Assembly (NCBI GenBank): GCA_022361135.1
Contig: JAKSBM010000217.1
Location: forward strand, 1-8,406
Length of the DNA stretch: 8,406 nt
Direction: 5' to 3'
Source of the DNA: Desulfobacterales bacterium
GTDB taxonomy: Bacteria > Desulfobacterota > Desulfobacteria > Desulfobacterales > Desulfobacteraceae
Shown: positions 298 through 8,339 of the stretch, piece by piece
How the letters are laid out: every line of letters begins with the position of its first letter
Numbering within the stretch: the first letter of the stretch is position 1
Translations under genes and position numbers: made by a program
The notes under the pieces: model-generated
The model's database searches: none
What the model saw: the letters and a program-made list of their open reading frames with translations, nothing else
What the model was told of the DNA's origin: nothing

Positions 298-3200
298 ATG
301 ACCGCGTTCAAAAACATCCTCTGTCTGGACCTGGAATCCGTTCCCAACGGAAAGATCTTCCACCTGGGCGCCCTGCTCAACAATAAAAAATTTGAACGCA
401 GGGATATTTCCTCTGAAACCCAGGCCCTGAAGGCCTTGGCTGATTTTGGCCAAGACGCAGACTCCATCCTGGGCCACAATATCTGCAACCATGATATTCC
501 CCTCATCCGGGAACGACTTCCCCAGGCATCCTTCCTTGAACAACCGGTGATTGACACCCTATTCCTCTCCCCCCTGGCCTTTCCGGAAAACCCCTACCAC
601 AAATTGATCAAGGATTATAAACTGGTCAAATCCGGCAAAAACGATCCCGTGGCCGATGCCCGACTCACCATTGAAATCCTTCGGGACCAGGTGGATGCCT
701 TCCTGGCCTTAGAGGAAGGAACGCCCAATCTCCTGAAGTTTTATGCCTTTGCCCTGGGTCTGGAAAAAAAACGCCCCCAGGGAGCCCAGGGCAATGCCCT
801 TATCATAGAAGGCATGGCCGGTGGTGTTCCCAGCCATGGAGAAGCCCGGCAACTTTTCCAGAAACTGTGCAAGGGCAAGGCCTGTCCCAGGGCATTGAAA
901 ACCTGCTGGGATAGCTGCTGGAATCAACCCAGAAAACGGCCGCTCCTGGCCTACCTGGTCTCCTGGCTCCAGGTGGCCGGGGGCAACTCCATCCTCCCCC
1001 CCTGGGTCAAACACGAATTTCCCCGGCTGGATGAATTCATCCAGACCCTGCGCTACAGCTGCGGGGATTCCAACTGCGACCACTGCCGCAAACAAAACGA
1101 TGCCCCCTCCCTGCTGAAACGGTATTTTGGATTTGAGGCATACCGCCCCATGGCCGACGGTACCCCCTTGCAACAGGACATCGTTGAGGCCGGGCTCGGC
1201 GGGAAATCCCTCCTGGCCATCCTGCCCACGGGTGGGGGGAAATCCATTTGCTACCAGATCCCGGCCCTCCACCGCTTCCACCGCACCGGTGCGCTGAGCA
1301 TTGTCATCACCCCCCTCAAGGCATTGATGAAGGACCAGGTGGACAACCTAAACCGGACCACGGGTACGGAGGTGGCCGCCACCATCAACGGCGGCCTCAC
1401 CCTTCCCGAACGGGGGGCCACCATGGAACGGGTGCGGCTGGGGGATGTGGGTATCCTCTACATTTCACCGGAACAATTGCGAAATCAAAGCATTGCCCAG
1501 CTCATCCAGGGGCGGGACATTGGCTATTGGATTTTTGACGAAGCCCATTGCCTGTCCAAATGGGGCCACGATTTCAGGCCGGACTACATCCACGTCACGG
1601 AATTCATTTTAAAATTAAGCCAACGCCATGGACATATTCCCCGGGTGGGGGCCTTCACGGCCACGGCCAAAAAGGATGTGACCGAAGAAATCCTGGATCA
1701 TTTCCAATCCGTGCTGGATCTGAAACCGACCCACTTCCAAGGCGGGGTCCACCGGGACAATTTGGAACTCTGGGTCCAGGCCGTCACCCCCAGTGAAAAA
1801 AATGACCAGATCGTCCGCCAGATCAAAGAAAGCCTGGAAAAGCGGGGCGGGGCCGCCATTGTCTATTGCAATAGTAAAAGGGGAACCGAAAAAATGGCCC
1901 GGTTCCTCCAGGAAAAACAAATCCAGGCCCGGGCCTTCCATTCACAAATCAAAGAAACGGATAAACAGGAAATCCAGGATGAATTTTCCGCCGGAAATAT
2001 CCCCGTCATCTGTGCCACCAATGCGTTCGGCATGGGCATCGACAAACAGGATATCCGTTTGGTCATCCATGCAGACATCCCCGGTTCCCTGGAAAACTAC
2101 CTCCAGGAGGCAGGACGTGCCGGGCGGGACCAGCAGGACTCCGATTGCATCCTCTGCTACGAACCCGATGACATCGACCTTCAATTCGCCCTGGCCGGCC
2201 GCTCCAAGGTCAGCCAAAAGGAAATCCAAAAAATCCTGAGATTCCTTCGCAAACGGGGACAGAAAACGGAAAAAATCATCATCACCCCCGGTGAAATCAT
2301 GGCCAGCATCGGCCACCCCCTGGACGACGAAACCACCAAGGCCCACACCGCGGTCAGCTGGCTGGAGCGAAAGGGATTCATCCACCGGGATTTCAATCAA
2401 ACCCTGTTTTTCCAAGGCCGCCCCCGGGTTAAAAACCTGGAAGCGGCCCAGGCCCTCATGGACAACCTGGATATCTCCCAGCGCACCCGGCAATTCTACA
2501 CCCGGATCCTCAGCCTCCTGTTCAACATCCAGGCCAACGAAGCCATCTCCGCCGACCACATCTGCACGGCCCTGGGCCAAACCAAGAATCCATCCAATAC
2601 CCATGTGGATTCCCGCCAGGTCATGATCCTGCTCTCGGACATGGCCCGCATCGGCCTCATCCGGGAAGGCACCCTCCTATCGGCCTTTATCCGCCCCAAG
2701 GGGAAGAACAATGCCCCGGCTCAATTGGAAACCTTCATTGAAATTGAAACGGCCATGGTCCAGGCCATGGAAGAGCTTTCACCGGAGGCCGGAACAACAG
2801 AAGAGCGGCTGGAAACCTTTAACCTGAGGCGCATGGCCCAGCGGCTCAAGGACCAGGGCCTGGAACAGGTGACCCCCAACACCGTGGATGCCGTCCTGAG
2901 AAGCCTGGCACAGGACCGGGGAAAATCCAAAGGGAAAAGCATGAAAATCATGGGACGGCGGGGCATGGACCGATTGGGGATCCATGTCAAATTCCCCTGG
3001 GAGACCCTGAAACAGCGCATGGCACTCCGCCACCTGGCCGCCCGCATCGCCATCCGGGCCCTCATTGACAAATTGCCCAAGGGGCAGCAGGCCAGTCGAG
3101 CTGAACTCTTGGTGGATTTCTTCCTCACCGACCTGACCCGAAAACTGGCCGCCCCCCATACCAGCCTCTTTGACGACGCAATTACCACCGCCCTGACCCG

Positions 3201-5475
3201 GGCCGATCATGTCCAAGTGGCCGAAGCGGTTCTACTCTACCTCCATGACCTGAACATCATCCGCCTCCAGAACGGCTTGGGCGTCTTCCGCCAGGCCTTT
3301 ACCCTGGGGCTGAACCCCCATGCCAAGGGGCGGGGGTACCTCAAGGGCGATTACCAGGCATTATCCCACCATTACGACCAAAAAAACGCCCAGATCCACG
3401 TCATGGAAAAATTCGCCCGCCTGGGCCTGGAAAAGCCCAAACACATTTACACCTACATCCGGGACTATTTTTCATTTTCCTTTGACCAGTTCACGGACCG
3501 TTACTTCCCGGGCGAAGAAAAAATCATAAAAACCGCCATGACCGGAGAAGCCTATCGAAATATCATCCAAAGCCTGAACAACCCGGTCCAGGAATCCATC
3601 GTGGCGGCGGCCATGGACAAAAACATCCTGGTTCTGGCCGGCCCCGGATCGGGAAAGACCCGGACCATCGTCCATCGATGTGCCTGGCTCATAAAGGCCC
3701 AATCGGTGATGCCCGAGGCCATCCTGGTCCTATGTTTCAACCACCGGGCCATGCTGGAACTCCGGCGTCGGATCCAAAATCTCACCGGCCCGGCCGGGCG
3801 GGGGATCACCGTGATGACCTACCACGGTTTTGCCATGCGCCTTACCGGCCGTTCCTTTCTGGAGTCCGGGGAAATGGATTTTTCCACATTAATCCAGGAC
3901 GCCACCGCCCTGCTCAACGGAGAGCAAGAAGTGGCGGGCATGGCACCGGACGACGCCCGGGAACACTTCCTGGCCGGCTTCCGTTACATCCTGGTGGACG
4001 AATACCAGGACATCGACCAGGAACAATACCGATTCATCTCCGCCCTCACCGGTCGATTAACCGAGGACAAGGAAACCAAAATTTCCATCATGGCCGTGGG
4101 GGACGACGACCAGAGTATCTATAAATTCCGCCAAGCCAACTTGAAATTCATCCACCAATTCCGGGAAGATTACCATGCCGAGCCCGTCTATCTCCTGGAA
4201 AACTACAGATCGGCCTACCCCATTGTGGAAACGGCCAACGCCTTTATCTCCCAAAACCGGGACCGAATGAAAAAGGAGCATCCCTGTCGGATCAACGGAG
4301 GGCGAAGCAGGGAGATTCTGCCCCCGGACCAGATTCCCCCCGCCCAACGGGTCCAGATTGTCCATGCCCCGGATCCGGCCTCCCAGGCCTGTTTTGTGGC
4401 CGAAACCATCCAGGCGTTAATGGAAGACAACCCCGATCTCACCCACGGGGACGTGGCCGTGGTCTCCCGCACCGGTCTGGGGTATCCGGCCCTGGTGGCC
4501 CTGCGCATGGCCCTGGCCCGCCTTGAAATTCCCTTTTCACGAACCTTGAAAAAGGACCAGGGATTCCCCCTTTTCCGGGCCCGGGAAATCCAAAACCTGT
4601 TGGACTACCTGGAGCTGCACAGCAACGACACCCTGGAACCGAAGGCATTGAAAACTCGCTACCTTGAAACCCTTGCTCCGGAAAATCCATGGACACCCCA
4701 GCTCGCGTCGCTATTGGAGGCCTGGTGCCAGGCTAACACCCAGGTTCCCATCACCCTCTCCCTGGCCCGGGAATTCATCCTTGAACTCCTCCTGGAGGAA
4801 CGCCGGGACCACCGCATGGGCAAGGGGGTTTCCCTGGGCACGGTCCACAGCGTCAAAGGCATGGAATTTCCCGTGGTATTTATCCTGGACGGGGGATGGC
4901 AAAACCGGGACATGGAAGAGGAACGCCGCCTCTTTTACGTGGGCATGACCCGGGCCGAACAAAGGCTTTACCTCATCAGAACCCAGGACGACACCCCCCA
5001 CATTCCCTTTCTGGAAAATTCACCCTTCTGCCGGGTATCCCAGGCCCCTCCCCGATCCCTGAGGGGATTTTCTCCCACCATGACCATCTCCATCCTGGGC
5101 ATGGGAGACCTTTACCTGGGGTATCCGGCCCGTTACCCGGAAAACAGCCCCATCCATACCCATCTATCAACCCTCATCCCCGGAGACCGGGTAAAACTCA
5201 TCCAGGAGAAGGAACGAATTTTCATGGTGGATAATTCCGATTTCAAGATAGCTGCTCTGTCCAAAAAAGCCGCACGGGTATGGCGCCCCCTGCTGGGAAG
5301 TATCATCAACGCCCGAATCCTTGCCATGGTCCGTCGCACCCGGGAGGACGGCAAAGAAAACCAGCCAACGGACATATCCTATCCCGACCCCAAATTGGAT
5401 TCCTGGGAAATCCCCATTGTGGAAATCCTCCACCAGGCCCCATTTGCCTCCTGGGATGAGTCCCCTCCCAAATGA
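298..5475 (+). CDS. DEDD exonuclease-RecQ helicase-UvrD helicase fusion protein
   Basis: A cytoplasmic DNA-processing enzyme of 1725 residues, almost three times the size of E. coli RecQ. Residues 1-130 form a DEDD exonuclease fold: DLE (D11, E13), GHNICNHD (D66) and NDPVAD (D120). Residues 190-263 hold seven cysteines (191, 196, 203, 207, 255, 260, 263). The RecQ core spans about 275-625: FGF at 277-279, Walker A TGGGKS 311-316, DEAH 414-417 followed by the RecQ aromatic-rich loop (SKWGHDFRPDY), TAT in motif III, motif V near 572-583 and QEAGRAGRD 603-611. No RecQ zinc domain follows. Residues about 625-1080 are a linker with winged-helix-like sequence. The UvrD/Rep core spans about 1090-1570: GPGSGKT 1115-1121, DEYQD 1234-1238, GDDDQSIYKFRQ near 1268-1278, ENYRS 1301-1305, VHSVKGMEF 1516-1524 and FYVGMTRAE 1546-1554. 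Residues 1585-1725 are an unassigned domain. ATG 298 is the only start after the in-frame stop at 256-258; AAGG at 283-286 is a weak ribosome site. All motor motifs are intact. Repair or recombination is the likely role, by inference. Confidence 0.93.
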   Translation: MTAFKNILCLDLESVPNGKIFHLGALLNNKKFERRDISSETQALKALADFGQDADSILGHNICNHDIPLIRERLPQASFLEQPVIDTLFLSPLAFPENPYHKLIKDYKLVKSGKNDPVADARLTIEILRDQVDAFLALEEGTPNLLKFYAFALGLEKKRPQGAQGNALIIEGMAGGVPSHGEARQLFQKLCKGKACPRALKTCWDSCWNQPRKRPLLAYLVSWLQVAGGNSILPPWVKHEFPRLDEFIQTLRYSCGDSNCDHCRKQNDAPSLLKRYFGFEAYRPMADGTPLQQDIVEAGLGGKSLLAILPTGGGKSICYQIPALHRFHRTGALSIVITPLKALMKDQVDNLNRTTGTEVAATINGGLTLPERGATMERVRLGDVGILYISPEQLRNQSIAQLIQGRDIGYWIFDEAHCLSKWGHDFRPDYIHVTEFILKLSQRHGHIPRVGAFTATAKKDVTEEILDHFQSVLDLKPTHFQGGVHRDNLELWVQAVTPSEKNDQIVRQIKESLEKRGGAAIVYCNSKRGTEKMARFLQEKQIQARAFHSQIKETDKQEIQDEFSAGNIPVICATNAFGMGIDKQDIRLVIHADIPGSLENYLQEAGRAGRDQQDSDCILCYEPDDIDLQFALAGRSKVSQKEIQKILRFLRKRGQKTEKIIITPGEIMASIGHPLDDETTKAHTAVSWLERKGFIHRDFNQTLFFQGRPRVKNLEAAQALMDNLDISQRTRQFYTRILSLLFNIQANEAISADHICTALGQTKNPSNTHVDSRQVMILLSDMARIGLIREGTLLSAFIRPKGKNNAPAQLETFIEIETAMVQAMEELSPEAGTTEERLETFNLRRMAQRLKDQGLEQVTPNTVDAVLRSLAQDRGKSKGKSMKIMGRRGMDRLGIHVKFPWETLKQRMALRHLAARIAIRALIDKLPKGQQASRAELLVDFFLTDLTRKLAAPHTSLFDDAITTALTRADHVQVAEAVLLYLHDLNIIRLQNGLGVFRQAFTLGLNPHAKGRGYLKGDYQALSHHYDQKNAQIHVMEKFARLGLEKPKHIYTYIRDYFSFSFDQFTDRYFPGEEKIIKTAMTGEAYRNIIQSLNNPVQESIVAAAMDKNILVLAGPGSGKTRTIVHRCAWLIKAQSVMPEAILVLCFNHRAMLELRRRIQNLTGPAGRGITVMTYHGFAMRLTGRSFLESGEMDFSTLIQDATALLNGEQEVAGMAPDDAREHFLAGFRYILVDEYQDIDQEQYRFISALTGRLTEDKETKISIMAVGDDDQSIYKFRQANLKFIHQFREDYHAEPVYLLENYRSAYPIVETANAFISQNRDRMKKEHPCRINGGRSREILPPDQIPPAQRVQIVHAPDPASQACFVAETIQALMEDNPDLTHGDVAVVSRTGLGYPALVALRMALARLEIPFSRTLKKDQGFPLFRAREIQNLLDYLELHSNDTLEPKALKTRYLETLAPENPWTPQLASLLEAWCQANTQVPITLSLAREFILELLLEERRDHRMGKGVSLGTVHSVKGMEFPVVFILDGGWQNRDMEEERRLFYVGMTRAEQRLYLIRTQDDTPHIPFLENSPFCRVSQAPPRSLRGFSPTMTISILGMGDLYLGYPARYPENSPIHTHLSTLIPGDRVKLIQEKERIFMVDNSDFKIAALSKKAARVWRPLLGSIINARILAMVRRTREDGKENQPTDISYPDPKLDSWEIPIVEILHQAPFASWDESPPK

Positions 5476-5529: not shown

Positions 5530-6384
5530 ATGAAACCCATGCCCCAATGCCCGGCCCCGGTTGATGCCCAAGCCCGGAAGGATGTGAAACCGGTGATCTG
5601 CTACCCCGTGGACAGCCTGCCCCAGCCCGATATGCACGGCCTTGAACAGGCCCGTGAACACCTGGAAAAAATAGACCAGATCATCATTCCCCCCAGGGAT
5701 GCCCGGGTATTTTCCGTTCCCCGGGGTCATTTTTTCAGGATTGTCTCCGTGGAAGGCCCCCAGGTGGGGGACCTCAACCTCTGGGCCGCGGACAACCTTA
5801 ATGAAAAATTCTACAGCGGCAAAACCCGGGCCCTCCACGGCACCCACCTGGGCTGGGGGGACCGCATGTGGTCCTCCTTCCCCCAGCTTCGTCCCATGGC
5901 CACCATCACCCACGACACCCTGGACTGGTATGGATTTGATGAATTCGGCGGATCGGTCCACGATGTCATCGGCACCCGGTGCGATCCGTACACCGGTCGC
6001 CTCCTCAGCGGAAACGACTACAACCATTGCTGCCATTCCAACCTCATCCGGGCCCTGGCCGCCCACACCGGCCTTGCCCCGGACCGGGCCGAGCCCCTGG
6101 TCCATGATGTCCTCAATGTCTTCATGTGTACCGGATTCACCCGGGATACGGGCCAATATTTCATGAAGGCCAGCCCAGTGCGACCGGGTGATTTCCTGGA
6201 ATTCTTTGCCGAGATTGATCTTTTGGGCGGCCTTTCCGCTTGCCCAGGGGGGGATTGCGGATCCGAACATTCCAGCGACACCGCCCCCTGCTTTCCATTG
6301 AAGGTGGAAATTTTCAAACCCCGTGCCCTGGCCGGCTGGACAACTCCGGCCCCCTCCCCCTACGCCGGTGGGCACGGCCTGTAA
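5530..6384 (+). CDS. DUF1989 (urea carboxylase-associated family) protein
   Basis: A 284-residue soluble protein with no signal peptide or membrane segment. After a variable N-terminal stretch (1-47) the DUF1989 domain runs from about residue 50 to 265. Landmarks are IPPRDAR 53-59, EGPQVGDLNLW 75-85, WSSFPQLRPMATITHDTLDW 114-133, GGSVHD 140-145, C151, NHCCHSNLIRAL 165-176, DVLNVFM 193-199 and SPVRPGDFLEFFAEIDLLGG 215-234, followed by a Cys-rich segment, SACPGGDC (236-243). The conserved Cys and His residues suggest a metal centre. Family knowledge: DUF1989 proteins are encoded beside urea/guanidine carboxylases, and one paired type (CgdA/CgdB) is a carboxyguanidine deiminase. This one is a single, longer protein with no carboxylase gene nearby, so its substrate is not known. 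The transporter genes downstream suggest an imported nitrogen compound. The family call is firm, the reaction is not. Confidence 0.88.
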   Translation: MKPMPQCPAPVDAQARKDVKPVICYPVDSLPQPDMHGLEQAREHLEKIDQIIIPPRDARVFSVPRGHFFRIVSVEGPQVGDLNLWAADNLNEKFYSGKTRALHGTHLGWGDRMWSSFPQLRPMATITHDTLDWYGFDEFGGSVHDVIGTRCDPYTGRLLSGNDYNHCCHSNLIRALAAHTGLAPDRAEPLVHDVLNVFMCTGFTRDTGQYFMKASPVRPGDFLEFFAEIDLLGGLSACPGGDCGSEHSSDTAPCFPLKVEIFKPRALAGWTTPAPSPYAGGHGL

Positions 6385-6755: not shown

Positions 6756-7538
6756 ATGAACCCCAGCGACCATGCCATCACCATTGTTGATCTTCACAAA
6801 TACTTCGGTTCCCTGGAAGTCCTCAAGGGCATCAATTTTTCGGCGGACAAGGGGGATGTGGTTTCCCTGTTGGGCTCTTCCGGATCGGGGAAATCCACCC
6901 TGCTCAGAAGCATCAACCTTCTGGAAACCCCGCAACAGGGGGAGGTCTACATCAACGGTGAACTCATCCGCATGGCCGGGGAGGGGGACAAACGCCGGGC
7001 GGCGGACAAAAAACAAATCAACCGCATCCGGGGAAGCCTGGGCATGGTTTTCCAAAATTTCAACCTCTGGACCCACATGACCATCCTCCAGAACGTCATG
7101 GAAGGCCCCATTCAGGTGTTGGGCAAATCCAAGGCCCAGGCCAGGGAGACGGCCATGGCCTACCTGGACAAGGTGGGGGTGGCCGACAAAATTTCCTTTT
7201 ATCCCTCCCAGCTCTCCGGGGGACAGCAACAGCGGGTGGCCATTGCCCGGGCCCTGGCCATGGATCCTTCCATGCTCCTCTTTGACGAACCCACCTCGGC
7301 CCTGGACCCGGAACTGGTCCAGGAGGTCCTCCAGGTCATGCGGGCCCTGGCCGACGAAGGCCGGACCATGATCATCGTCACCCATGAAATGGAATTTGCC
7401 CGGGAGGTTTCCTCCCGGATCATCTTCCTGGACGATGGGGAAATCACCGAAGACGGCCCGCCGGAAGAGGTATTTAACCGGCCCAAAACCGAACGATTTC
7501 GCCAGTTCCTGGCCCACAATCCCATGGAAACAGCGTAA
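6756..7538 (+). CDS. amino-acid ABC transporter ATP-binding protein, HisP/GlnQ/ArtP type
   Basis: A 260-residue cytoplasmic ATPase, the usual length for the polar amino-acid uptake family, that powers import through a membrane permease pair. Walker [10 protein letters not shown] is at 40-48, the Q-loop Gln at 100, the signature LSGGQQQR at 153-160, Walker B LLFDEP at 174-179 with catalytic E178, the D-loop SALD at 181-184 and the switch H210. The insertion near residues 75-95 (an AADKKQ-containing stretch) and the block [13 protein letters not shown] are characteristic of HisP-like ATPases for basic amino acids, longer than in GlnQ. ATG 6756 is preceded by a purine-rich ribosome site (GAAAGGG, 6744-6750, five-base spacer). 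A sigma-54 promoter lies upstream, and the cognate binding protein starts 51 bases after the stop. All nucleotide-binding motifs are intact. The exact substrate cannot be told from the ATPase. Confidence 0.95.
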
Positions 7539-7539
7539 A

Positions 7540-7551
7540 CCGGGAAACCGG
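7540..7551 (+). other. small intercistronic hairpin between ATPase and binding-protein genes
   Basis: CCGG (7540-7543), GAAA, CCGG (7548-7551) makes a four-base-pair stem with a stable GNRA-type tetraloop directly after the ATPase stop. It may affect mRNA processing so that the binding protein is made in larger amounts; it is too small to be a terminator. Confidence 0.25.
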
Positions 7552-7577
7552 ATTCTCCATAACCCATAAATTCATCC

Positions 7578-7583
7578 AAGGAG
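7578..7583 (+). promoter_or_regulatory. strong ribosome binding site of the binding-protein gene
   Basis: AAGGAG lies six bases before ATG 7590, the best Shine-Dalgarno match among the genes in the window. This fits the high level at which periplasmic binding proteins are usually made compared with their transporter. Confidence 0.7.
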
Positions 7584-7589
7584 TTACCC

Positions 7590-8339
7590 ATGAAAAAGCT
7601 TTTCACCTGCTGCCTCATCGCCCTCTTCCTGGCCTCGGGTTCTGCCATGGCCAAAACCGTAGTCCGCATCGCCAATGAAACCGCCACTCCCCCCTTCAAC
7701 TTTGTGGACGGCCAGGGCAACATCAAAGGATTTGACGTGGAAATCGCCGCCGCCCTCTGCCAGGTCATGGGCGTGGAAAAGAAAGACGTGATCCAGGACT
7801 GGGACGGCATGATCCCGGGCCTGCTTTCCAAAAAATTCGACGCCATCATTTCGGACATGTCCATCACGGCCAAACGACTTAAGGTGGTCAACTTCTCCGA
7901 CTCCTACTACGATGAAACCGGATTGTTCCTCTCGGAAAAGGGCAAAACCATGGAGTTTTCCCCCCAGGGACTCAAGGGCAAACGCATCGGCGTCCAGCGG
8001 GCCACCACCTGGGCCAATTATATCAAGGGCGTCTATGGAAAAACCGTTGAAATCAAATACTACGATGCCCCGGCCGCCCAGATCCTGGACCTGGCTTCGG
8101 GTCGGCTGGACCTGGTCCTGGCCTCGGATGTATTCGTCCACAAGACCCTGAAGAGTGAAGATGGGAAAAACCTCCAGGCCATCGGCCCCTTGGTCACGGA
8201 TAAACAATACATCGGCGCCGGTGTGGGCATTGCCATCCGCAAGGAAGACAAAGCGTTGCTGGAGGCCTTCAACAAGGCCCTGGCCGAAATCAAGGCCAAC
8301 GGTACCTACGATGAAATCTATGACACATGGTTTAAATAA
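7590..8339 (+). CDS. periplasmic amino-acid-binding protein of an ABC transporter (SBP family 3)
   Basis: A 249-residue solute-binding protein that captures an amino acid in the periplasm and delivers it to the permease. The first 21 residues are a Sec signal peptide: MKK, a hydrophobic core, and an AMA cleavage site before K22. The mature part has family-3 landmarks: PPFNFVD near 34-40, GFDVEIAAAL 47-56, WDGMIPGLL 71-79, FDAIISDMSITAKR 83-96 (R96 matches the arginine that binds the ligand carboxylate), NFSDSYY 101-107, GKRIGVQRATT 130-140, GRLDLVLASD 171-180 (D180 is a candidate ligand-amine contact) and the terminal NGTYDEIYDTWFK. The second lobe, with YIGAGVGIAIRKED near 207-220, resembles HisJ/LAO proteins, so a basic amino acid such as arginine, ornithine or histidine is favoured; this is inference. 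It follows the ATPase gene by 51 bases and probably shares its sigma-54 promoter. Confidence 0.93.
   Translation: MKKLFTCCLIALFLASGSAMAKTVVRIANETATPPFNFVDGQGNIKGFDVEIAAALCQVMGVEKKDVIQDWDGMIPGLLSKKFDAIISDMSITAKRLKVVNFSDSYYDETGLFLSEKGKTMEFSPQGLKGKRIGVQRATTWANYIKGVYGKTVEIKYYDAPAAQILDLASGRLDLVLASDVFVHKTLKSEDGKNLQAIGPLVTDKQYIGAGVGIAIRKEDKALLEAFNKALAEIKANGTYDEIYDTWFK

Follow-up and report, generated by a model that had tools for sequence, protein, structure and literature searches.

A widespread bacterial protein joining a DnaQ-like exonuclease domain to RecQ-type and UvrD-type helicase motors

A nuclease domain and two helicase motors in one chain

What role might be served by a single polypeptide that joins a nuclease domain to two helicase motors of different superfamilies? 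The question is raised by a gene in the stretch of DNA analyzed here (hereafter the window), the 8,406 nucleotides at positions 1 to 8,406 of contig JAKSBM010000217.1 from a Desulfobacterales bacterium (GenBank assembly GCA_022361135.1). An uninterrupted frame on the forward strand, running from an ATG at 298 to a stop at 5475 (298..5475, +), encodes a product of 1725 amino acids (aa) that presents, in order, a DEDD exonuclease domain, a linker with four conserved cysteines (Cys4), a RecQ-type motor, approximately four winged helices, a UvrD-type motor, and a small C-terminal domain. An initial annotation of this DNA had claimed a single frame with a DEDD exonuclease and two complete motors, and this is borne out, with the catalytic motifs strongly conserved across the family; the linker, the winged helices separating the motors, and the C-terminal domain are parts that it did not include. 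Pfam places DEAD at residues 289-462, Helicase_C at 505-611, AAA_19/UvrD within 1098-1292, and UvrD_C at 1495-1562.

The frame and the fusion are real, and the family is widespread. Relatives at 27-69% identity have the same domain order, which excludes a chance origin of the fusion. A protein search returned 6639 matches among 7994 scored candidates, of which 120 are listed; those further down may cover one motor only. The nearest relative shares 69% identity with the query over 99% of its length, and coverage is 87-99% for the 70 best matches other than the query. Many bacterial proteins share this build, with full-length coverage seen for the best matches listed. Near relatives among those matches bear the names Desulfobacula, Desulfobacterales, and Desulfobacter latus (Desulfobacterota). 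Conservation was assessed in two alignments, one of 124 rows (114 database proteins longer than 1600 aa, including that of the window, and 10 plasmid copies) and a more diverse one of 69 rows (the window, 36 database proteins, and 32 loci). The lysines K315 and K1120, which the initial annotation had singled out as the Walker A residues of the two motors, are recovered as such by a motif scan and are each present in all 124 aligned members. The component parts are known, and the fusion is annotated, where it is named at all, only as a RecQ-type helicase or, once, as a UvrD-helicase domain protein; among the open-access literature matches listed, the titles and abstract openings do not describe it.

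Taking these findings together, we propose, with slightly more confidence than doubt, that the protein is a helicase-nuclease of 3'-5' direction that stands alone, is passed horizontally between bacteria, and acts on DNA that is damaged, branched, or foreign. The proposal draws on sequence data and structure prediction, namely, the domain order, the conserved catalytic residues other than the DEDDh histidine, the patchy distribution (alongside canonical RecQ in the group tested for it), the lack of recurring neighbors among the loci compared, and the presence of copies on plasmids and mobile contigs. The 3'-5' direction is established for the RecQ, UvrD, and DnaQ families, and it is from these that we infer the direction of the motors and nuclease of the fusion; its role is likewise a proposal. 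If active, it would constitute a one-chain helicase-nuclease with motors of two superfamilies, offering a tractable model of motor cooperation. Because it is mobile, it may serve in conflicts between DNA elements.

The exonuclease domain

The N-terminal domain (residues 1-152; 298..753, +) is identified as a DnaQ/RNase T-like DEDD exonuclease domain by conservation and profile comparison. Exo I supplies D11 and E13 (328..336, +), each present in 122 of the 124 aligned members, with gaps in the remaining two, and in 68 and 67, respectively, of the 69 more diverse rows, where P0047 has gaps at both positions. Exo II extends from GHN to D66 (residues 59-66; 472..495, +) and Exo III has the form N115-x4-D120 (640..657, +); both D66 and D120 are found in 124 of 124 members, and in 69 and 68 of the 69 rows, respectively. 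The catalytic histidine five residues before the last aspartate, which is the hallmark of DEDDh enzymes, is missing: N115, with which it is aligned by hhalign, occupies a column with N in 118 and S in 6 of the 124 members, and in the 69 rows the residue is Asn (63), Ser (5), or Lys (1). DEDDy enzymes have a tyrosine four residues ahead of the last aspartate; the corresponding column here, that of residue 116, has Asp in 72 of the 124 members and Asn in 48, with Tyr lying outside the five commonest letters.

The lineage of this domain rests on profile comparison, because single-sequence scans of Pfam and the PDB give weak and differing matches. At a threshold of 1e-3, Pfam has no match for the exonuclease domain, and relaxing this to E≤5 gives weak matches only. 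Such scans lean toward DNA_pol_B_exo1 (7 of 33 members, best 2.5e-4), PF01612 is absent from the 12 Pfam families matched by the 33 members at E≤5, and the PDB sequence matches are to exonucleases of the DnaQ kind (best E, 0.012). When the alignment of the 33 exonuclease domains was compared by hhalign, RNase_T/DnaQ was matched with a probability of 95.6 (E, 1.3e-8; 123 columns), as against 40.7 for DNA_pol_B_exo1 and 5.6 for DNA_pol_A_exo1 (12 bacterial PF01612 domains). In the controls, two other parts of the fusion protein scored 0.1-0.3, and PF01612 against PF00929 gave 54.9. The profiles came from domains in Pseudomonadota genomes, with clean frames at 12 of 20 PF01612 loci, 19 of 25 PF00929 loci, and 4 of the 5 PF03104 loci used (6 were fetched). 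The exonuclease domain looks to be DnaQ derived, with its histidine replaced by asparagine.

This replacement raises the alternative that the domain does not cut and merely binds DNA ends, leaving the motors alone to do the work. The composition of the histidine column is consistent with such a loss, as are two copies with substituted catalytic acids, one with E13 changed to G (L040) and the other with D120 changed to C (L109); in each of these, neither motor has lost its Walker A lysine. Against it, the four acids are otherwise kept in 67 to 69 of the 69 rows, and H101 and K105 are present in all 69, so that we accord inactivity an appreciable but minor likelihood. The last two residues lie in a loop (residues 101-112; 598..633, +) that is poorly predicted (predicted local distance difference test score [pLDDT], <50) despite their invariance; it may, speculatively, provide the function that is missing. 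An exonuclease with a histidine-to-asparagine change is a possible test of what is required of the fifth residue of DEDD enzymes.

The linker, the RecQ-type motor, and comparison with WRN

The linker (residues 153-270; 754..1107, +) contains C196, conserved in 68 of the 69 rows, and C255, C260, and C263, conserved in all of them, which suggests a possible zinc site. It leads into a RecQ-type motor of helicase superfamily 2 (SF2; residues 271-636; 1108..2205, +), supported by Pfam, NCBIfam, motifs, and a fold match. The motifs begin at residues 311 (TGGGKS), 414 (DEAHC), 422 (WGHDFR), 453 (FTATA), 573 (ATNAFGMGIDK), and 603 (QEAGRAGRD). The Walker A motif TGGGKS with K315 lies at 1228..1245 (+), and DEAHC together with WGHDFR, the aromatic-rich loop of RecQ, at 1537..1578 (+), as found by motif scan and alignment; the loop is retained across the family.

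Besides the motor, this loop is shared with canonical bacterial RecQ (TIGR01389), and the fusion passes the broad NCBIfam recQ_fam cutoff (TIGR00614; 301.7 bits against 219.8). It nonetheless falls far below the cutoff of the RecQ equivalog TIGR01389 (348.2 bits against 640.2) and coexists with RecQ in the two genomes tested for both. The zinc cysteines of canonical RecQ sit behind motif VI. In the fusion, only C617 and C620 are seen close behind that motif in the sequence, with no dedicated test made, and four conserved cysteines precede the motor instead. HRDC is not among the Pfam matches at E≤1e-3.

The motor is followed by about four winged helices, delineated by eye from the DSSP order of secondary structure in the predicted model. 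The first (residues 640-709; 2215..2424, +) is at the place of the winged helix of the RecQ C-terminal (RQC) domain; the second (residues 728-798; 2479..2691, +) lies in a region that also gives weak winged helix-turn-helix profile matches; and the third and fourth span residues 806-897 (2713..2988, +) and 901-1005 (2998..3312, +). Structure was predicted for the protein in two halves, and helicases fill the fold-match lists, so that the lack of nonhelicase folds in those lists is uninformative.

The initial annotation had called the protein "WRN-like," and it does share with human WRN the order of exonuclease followed by RecQ. Beyond that order, a likeness to WRN is not supported. The WRN exonuclease is placed in Pfam DNA_pol_A_exo1, whereas the profile of the fusion exonuclease is nearer to DnaQ/RNase T (95.6 against 5.6), a comparison made via bacterial PF01612 domains rather than WRN itself. 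Unlike WRN, the fusion lacks the DEDDy tyrosine, has no zinc cysteines seen past motif VI and no HRDC match at 1e-3, and adds the winged helices and a second motor, of superfamily 1A (SF1A). That it might be the bacterial orthologue of WRN is, hence, highly improbable: the nature of the exonuclease and the UvrD motor that follows speak against it, and BLM and RECQL5 match equally well.

The UvrD-type motor and the C-terminal domain

The second motor (residues 1089-1563; 3562..4986, +) is of the UvrD/PcrA type, as seen from Pfam, a fold search, motifs, and motif spacing, the SF1A assignment following from motifs and fold. Its motifs begin at residues 1114 (AGPGSGKT), 1233 (VDEYQD), 1302 (NYRS), 1515 (TVHSVKGME), and 1541 (EERRLFYVGMTRA), with the Walker A motif, which carries K1120, at 3637..3660 (+). 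The spacings between motifs I and II (119) and IV and V (213) are shorter than the medians for 56 other UvrD-type proteins (190 and 276, respectively), indicating that the 1B and 2B regions are shortened. In this respect, the motor differs from UvrD, PcrA, and Rep, and it falls below the equivalog cutoffs of all three (pcrA, 218.9 of 911.2 bits; uvrD, 195.4 of 1144.45; rep, 161.3 of 951.45). A Nitrospira bin encodes a 1057-aa form (L036, 2659-5832) that matches residues 643-1710 only, without exonuclease or RecQ, besides a full-length frame elsewhere in the same genome. Hence, the half with the winged helices and UvrD can stand alone.

The small C-terminal domain (residues 1566-1725; 4993..5472, +) is alpha/beta in the model, and it could be placed in no known family. 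A HIRAN domain, suggested by inspection by eye, finds no support: the Pfam matches of 24 members, to 11 families, do not include it, and its probability in an hhalign comparison with three HIRAN domains was 0.2. With so small a template set, this evidence is weak.

Phyletic distribution and mobility

The fusion is patchily distributed. With a probe composed of the exonuclease and linker (E≤1e-8), it was found, as lower bounds, in 7 of 199 genomes of the genus of Pseudomonas sp. S30 (the chosen center, counted among the 7), 4 of 112 of the phylum of G009, and 3 of 198 of the phylum of G007 (one copy with an internal stop). A Bacteroidota probe found it in 11 of 198 genomes of the phylum of G004 (center included), again as a lower bound. 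In the Pseudomonas genus, canonical RecQ scores above its cutoff in 59 of 59 genomes, including the fusion carriers G003 and G062; there, the fusion is therefore an accessory addition and not the RecQ of the cell. Further, 18 plasmid records contain the fusion over 80% or more of the query length, and 11 IMG/VR contigs hold a family frame of at least 1577 aa. In a quick 49-row tree of the exonuclease and RecQ columns, copies from plasmids, IMG/VR, Verrucomicrobiota, and Clostridia are intermixed (values of 95 or above for 22 of the 46 inner branches, with a long-branch warning for a cyanobacterial pair and a Bacteroidota-type clade). A phage gene was also considered and rejected, as none of 119 matching INPHARED records reach at least 80% query coverage.

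Decayed copies without the middle of the gene occur in the sample from the phylum of G007 (L185, 9731-11013; L188, 8793-11404), and the genome with the first of these (G504) has an additional long open copy. An Acetivibrio copy (L037, 9956-14403) is present as two adjacent frames of 379 and 1079 aa, reflecting either a draft error or decay.

These data bear on the alternative that the protein is an accessory host DNA repair enzyme, acting, for example, on cross-links or broken forks, with no link to foreign DNA. Its RecQ, UvrD, and DnaQ-type parts belong to repair or replication families, and the genome copies are largely set amid ordinary genes (among the families listed). A parallel is offered by DinG of Staphylococcus aureus (SaDinG), likewise a bacterial fusion of an N-terminal exonuclease to an SF2 helicase, for which cross-link resistance is reported to need both activities (PMC12345164). 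DinG unwinds 5'-3' (PMC12345164), in which it differs from the direction proposed here, and it has neither a RecQ nor a UvrD part. Against a purely host function stand the patchy presence in all four groups sampled, the copies on plasmids and IMG/VR contigs, and the decayed copies. We regard such a function as rather unlikely, though a serious candidate.

Gene neighborhoods and functional proposals

The search for a conserved gene neighborhood was negative, the biggest cluster of neighbors covering 6 of 51 loci. This has a bearing on the possibility that the protein assists in replicating or maintaining plasmids and integrative elements. In keeping with this are the plasmid copies, neighboring ParB and integrase genes, and the reported involvement of recipient UvrD in the establishment of conjugative plasmids (PMC10085688). 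A recurring neighbor such as rep or relaxase was, however, not found in the 51 loci, and we consider such a helper function quite improbable.

Another possibility is that the protein constitutes a single-protein defense system, a one-chain counterpart of RecBCD or AddAB directed against incoming phage or plasmid DNA. A single chain with two motors and a nuclease domain, encoded by a stand-alone gene, would fit this role, as would the methyltransferases and recombinases on IMG/VR contigs. When neighbors were scanned with PADLOC (E≤1e-15; up to three per side; two decayed loci and proteins of at least 1500 aa left out), 105 proteins at 18 genome loci matched 132 models, as against 34 models matched by 119 proteins at 20 control places in 10 of those 18 genomes. 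The models listed include, for the genome neighbors, a type I methylase, a specificity subunit, JetA, JetB, DpdE, DpdF, PsyrT, and ZorD, and, for the control places, PD-T4-6, RtcR, mad3, and mad6. Such counts are of models and not of genes, because related models match the same protein, and the DpdF and PsyrT helicase models may match ordinary RecQ-type proteins. The DpdF, GajB, and PsyrT models also match helicase segments of the fusion itself, with each match limited to either the RecQ or the UvrD part and never covering both (25 of 83 models listed).

When 57 loci were scanned for motifs of DNA methylases and recombinases, matches appeared in 14 (L184, L185, L188-L191, which are duplicates or decayed, and partial loci were omitted). 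By source, these were found in 8 of 11 IMG/VR contigs, 2 of 10 plasmid loci (one a false match, in a gene of L006 annotated as a substrate-binding protein), and 4 of 36 genome loci, as against 2 of 20 controls. Overall, the rate per 10,000 residues was 0.97 against 0.21 in the controls, the family loci being mostly longer than the 16-kb controls. Among 92 neighbors on 12 IMG/VR contigs, PHROGs identified integrase (5), DNA invertase (5), DNA methyltransferase (4), and ParB (3), and no structural phage family is among the matches listed (25 of 71 PHROGs). Three IMG/VR contigs (L102, L104, and L109) have paired serine-recombinase-like frames of 407-535 aa near the helicase gene. The IMG/VR copies are thus accompanied by recombinases and methylases, and the genome loci do not differ clearly from controls; the notion of defense islands at the latter was set aside, as the motif count reveals no clear enrichment, though the PADLOC model counts differ. 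The mapping of carriers and neighbors called for in the initial annotation yields a patchy, mobile family, pointing to an accessory role, but defense-type neighbors are clear only on mobile contigs. A dedicated defense system is unlikely in our estimate.

A related and tentative idea, to which we attach low likelihood, is that the protein is a one-chain equivalent of the multisubunit helicase-nucleases, passed between bacteria and both unwinding and destroying invading or competing DNA. In comparison with RecBCD, AddAB, and AdnAB, the fusion is a single chain with motors from two superfamilies (SF2 and SF1A), its nuclease is of the DnaQ and not the RecB type, and no recurring partner genes were found.

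The likelihoods that we attach to these readings are not exclusive, because the helicase-nuclease proposed at the outset overlaps with both repair and defense. Under that proposal, the protein would load on a junction or DNA end, whereupon the RecQ motor and the winged helices might unwind branches or forks. The exposed single strand could then serve as a track for the UvrD motor, which would strip proteins or continue the unwinding, and the DnaQ-type domain would trim the 3' end. UvrD monomers are known to be autoinhibited, and the reduced 2B region may lessen this effect in the fusion. Its role in the cell would be accessory DNA processing at conflicts, involving damaged, stalled, incoming, or mobile-element DNA, and not core repair.

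Several observations weigh against this mobile helicase-nuclease. The histidine-to-asparagine change at the DEDDh site puts the exonuclease activity in doubt. The carrier frequencies are lower bounds, because single-sequence probes may miss distant members, and the tree that intermixes the sources was quickly made and carries a long-branch warning. The Pfam families of neighbors at the genome loci are mostly ordinary (25 of 135 families listed), methylase and recombinase motifs are not commoner at genome loci than at control places, and the IMG/VR neighbors are biased, because those contigs were chosen as virus-like. Finally, the downstream genes in the window encode a DUF1989 protein and amino acid transport components.

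Genes flanking the fusion in the window

The window has only 297 bases upstream of the helicase gene, and the three downstream neighbors were scanned with Pfam and NCBIfam. Among the frames scanned, no permease gene was seen. The frames at 6756-8339 (+) encode a HisP/GlnQ-type ATP-binding cassette ATPase and a family 3 amino acid binding protein. The DUF1989 gene (5530-6384, +; Pfam E, 3e-47), the product of which is distantly like urea amidolyase-associated proteins, starts 54 bases past the helicase gene and in its orientation. Upstream, the end of a frame (3-164, +; stop at 164) resembles, by eye, the C terminus of a TetR-type regulator.
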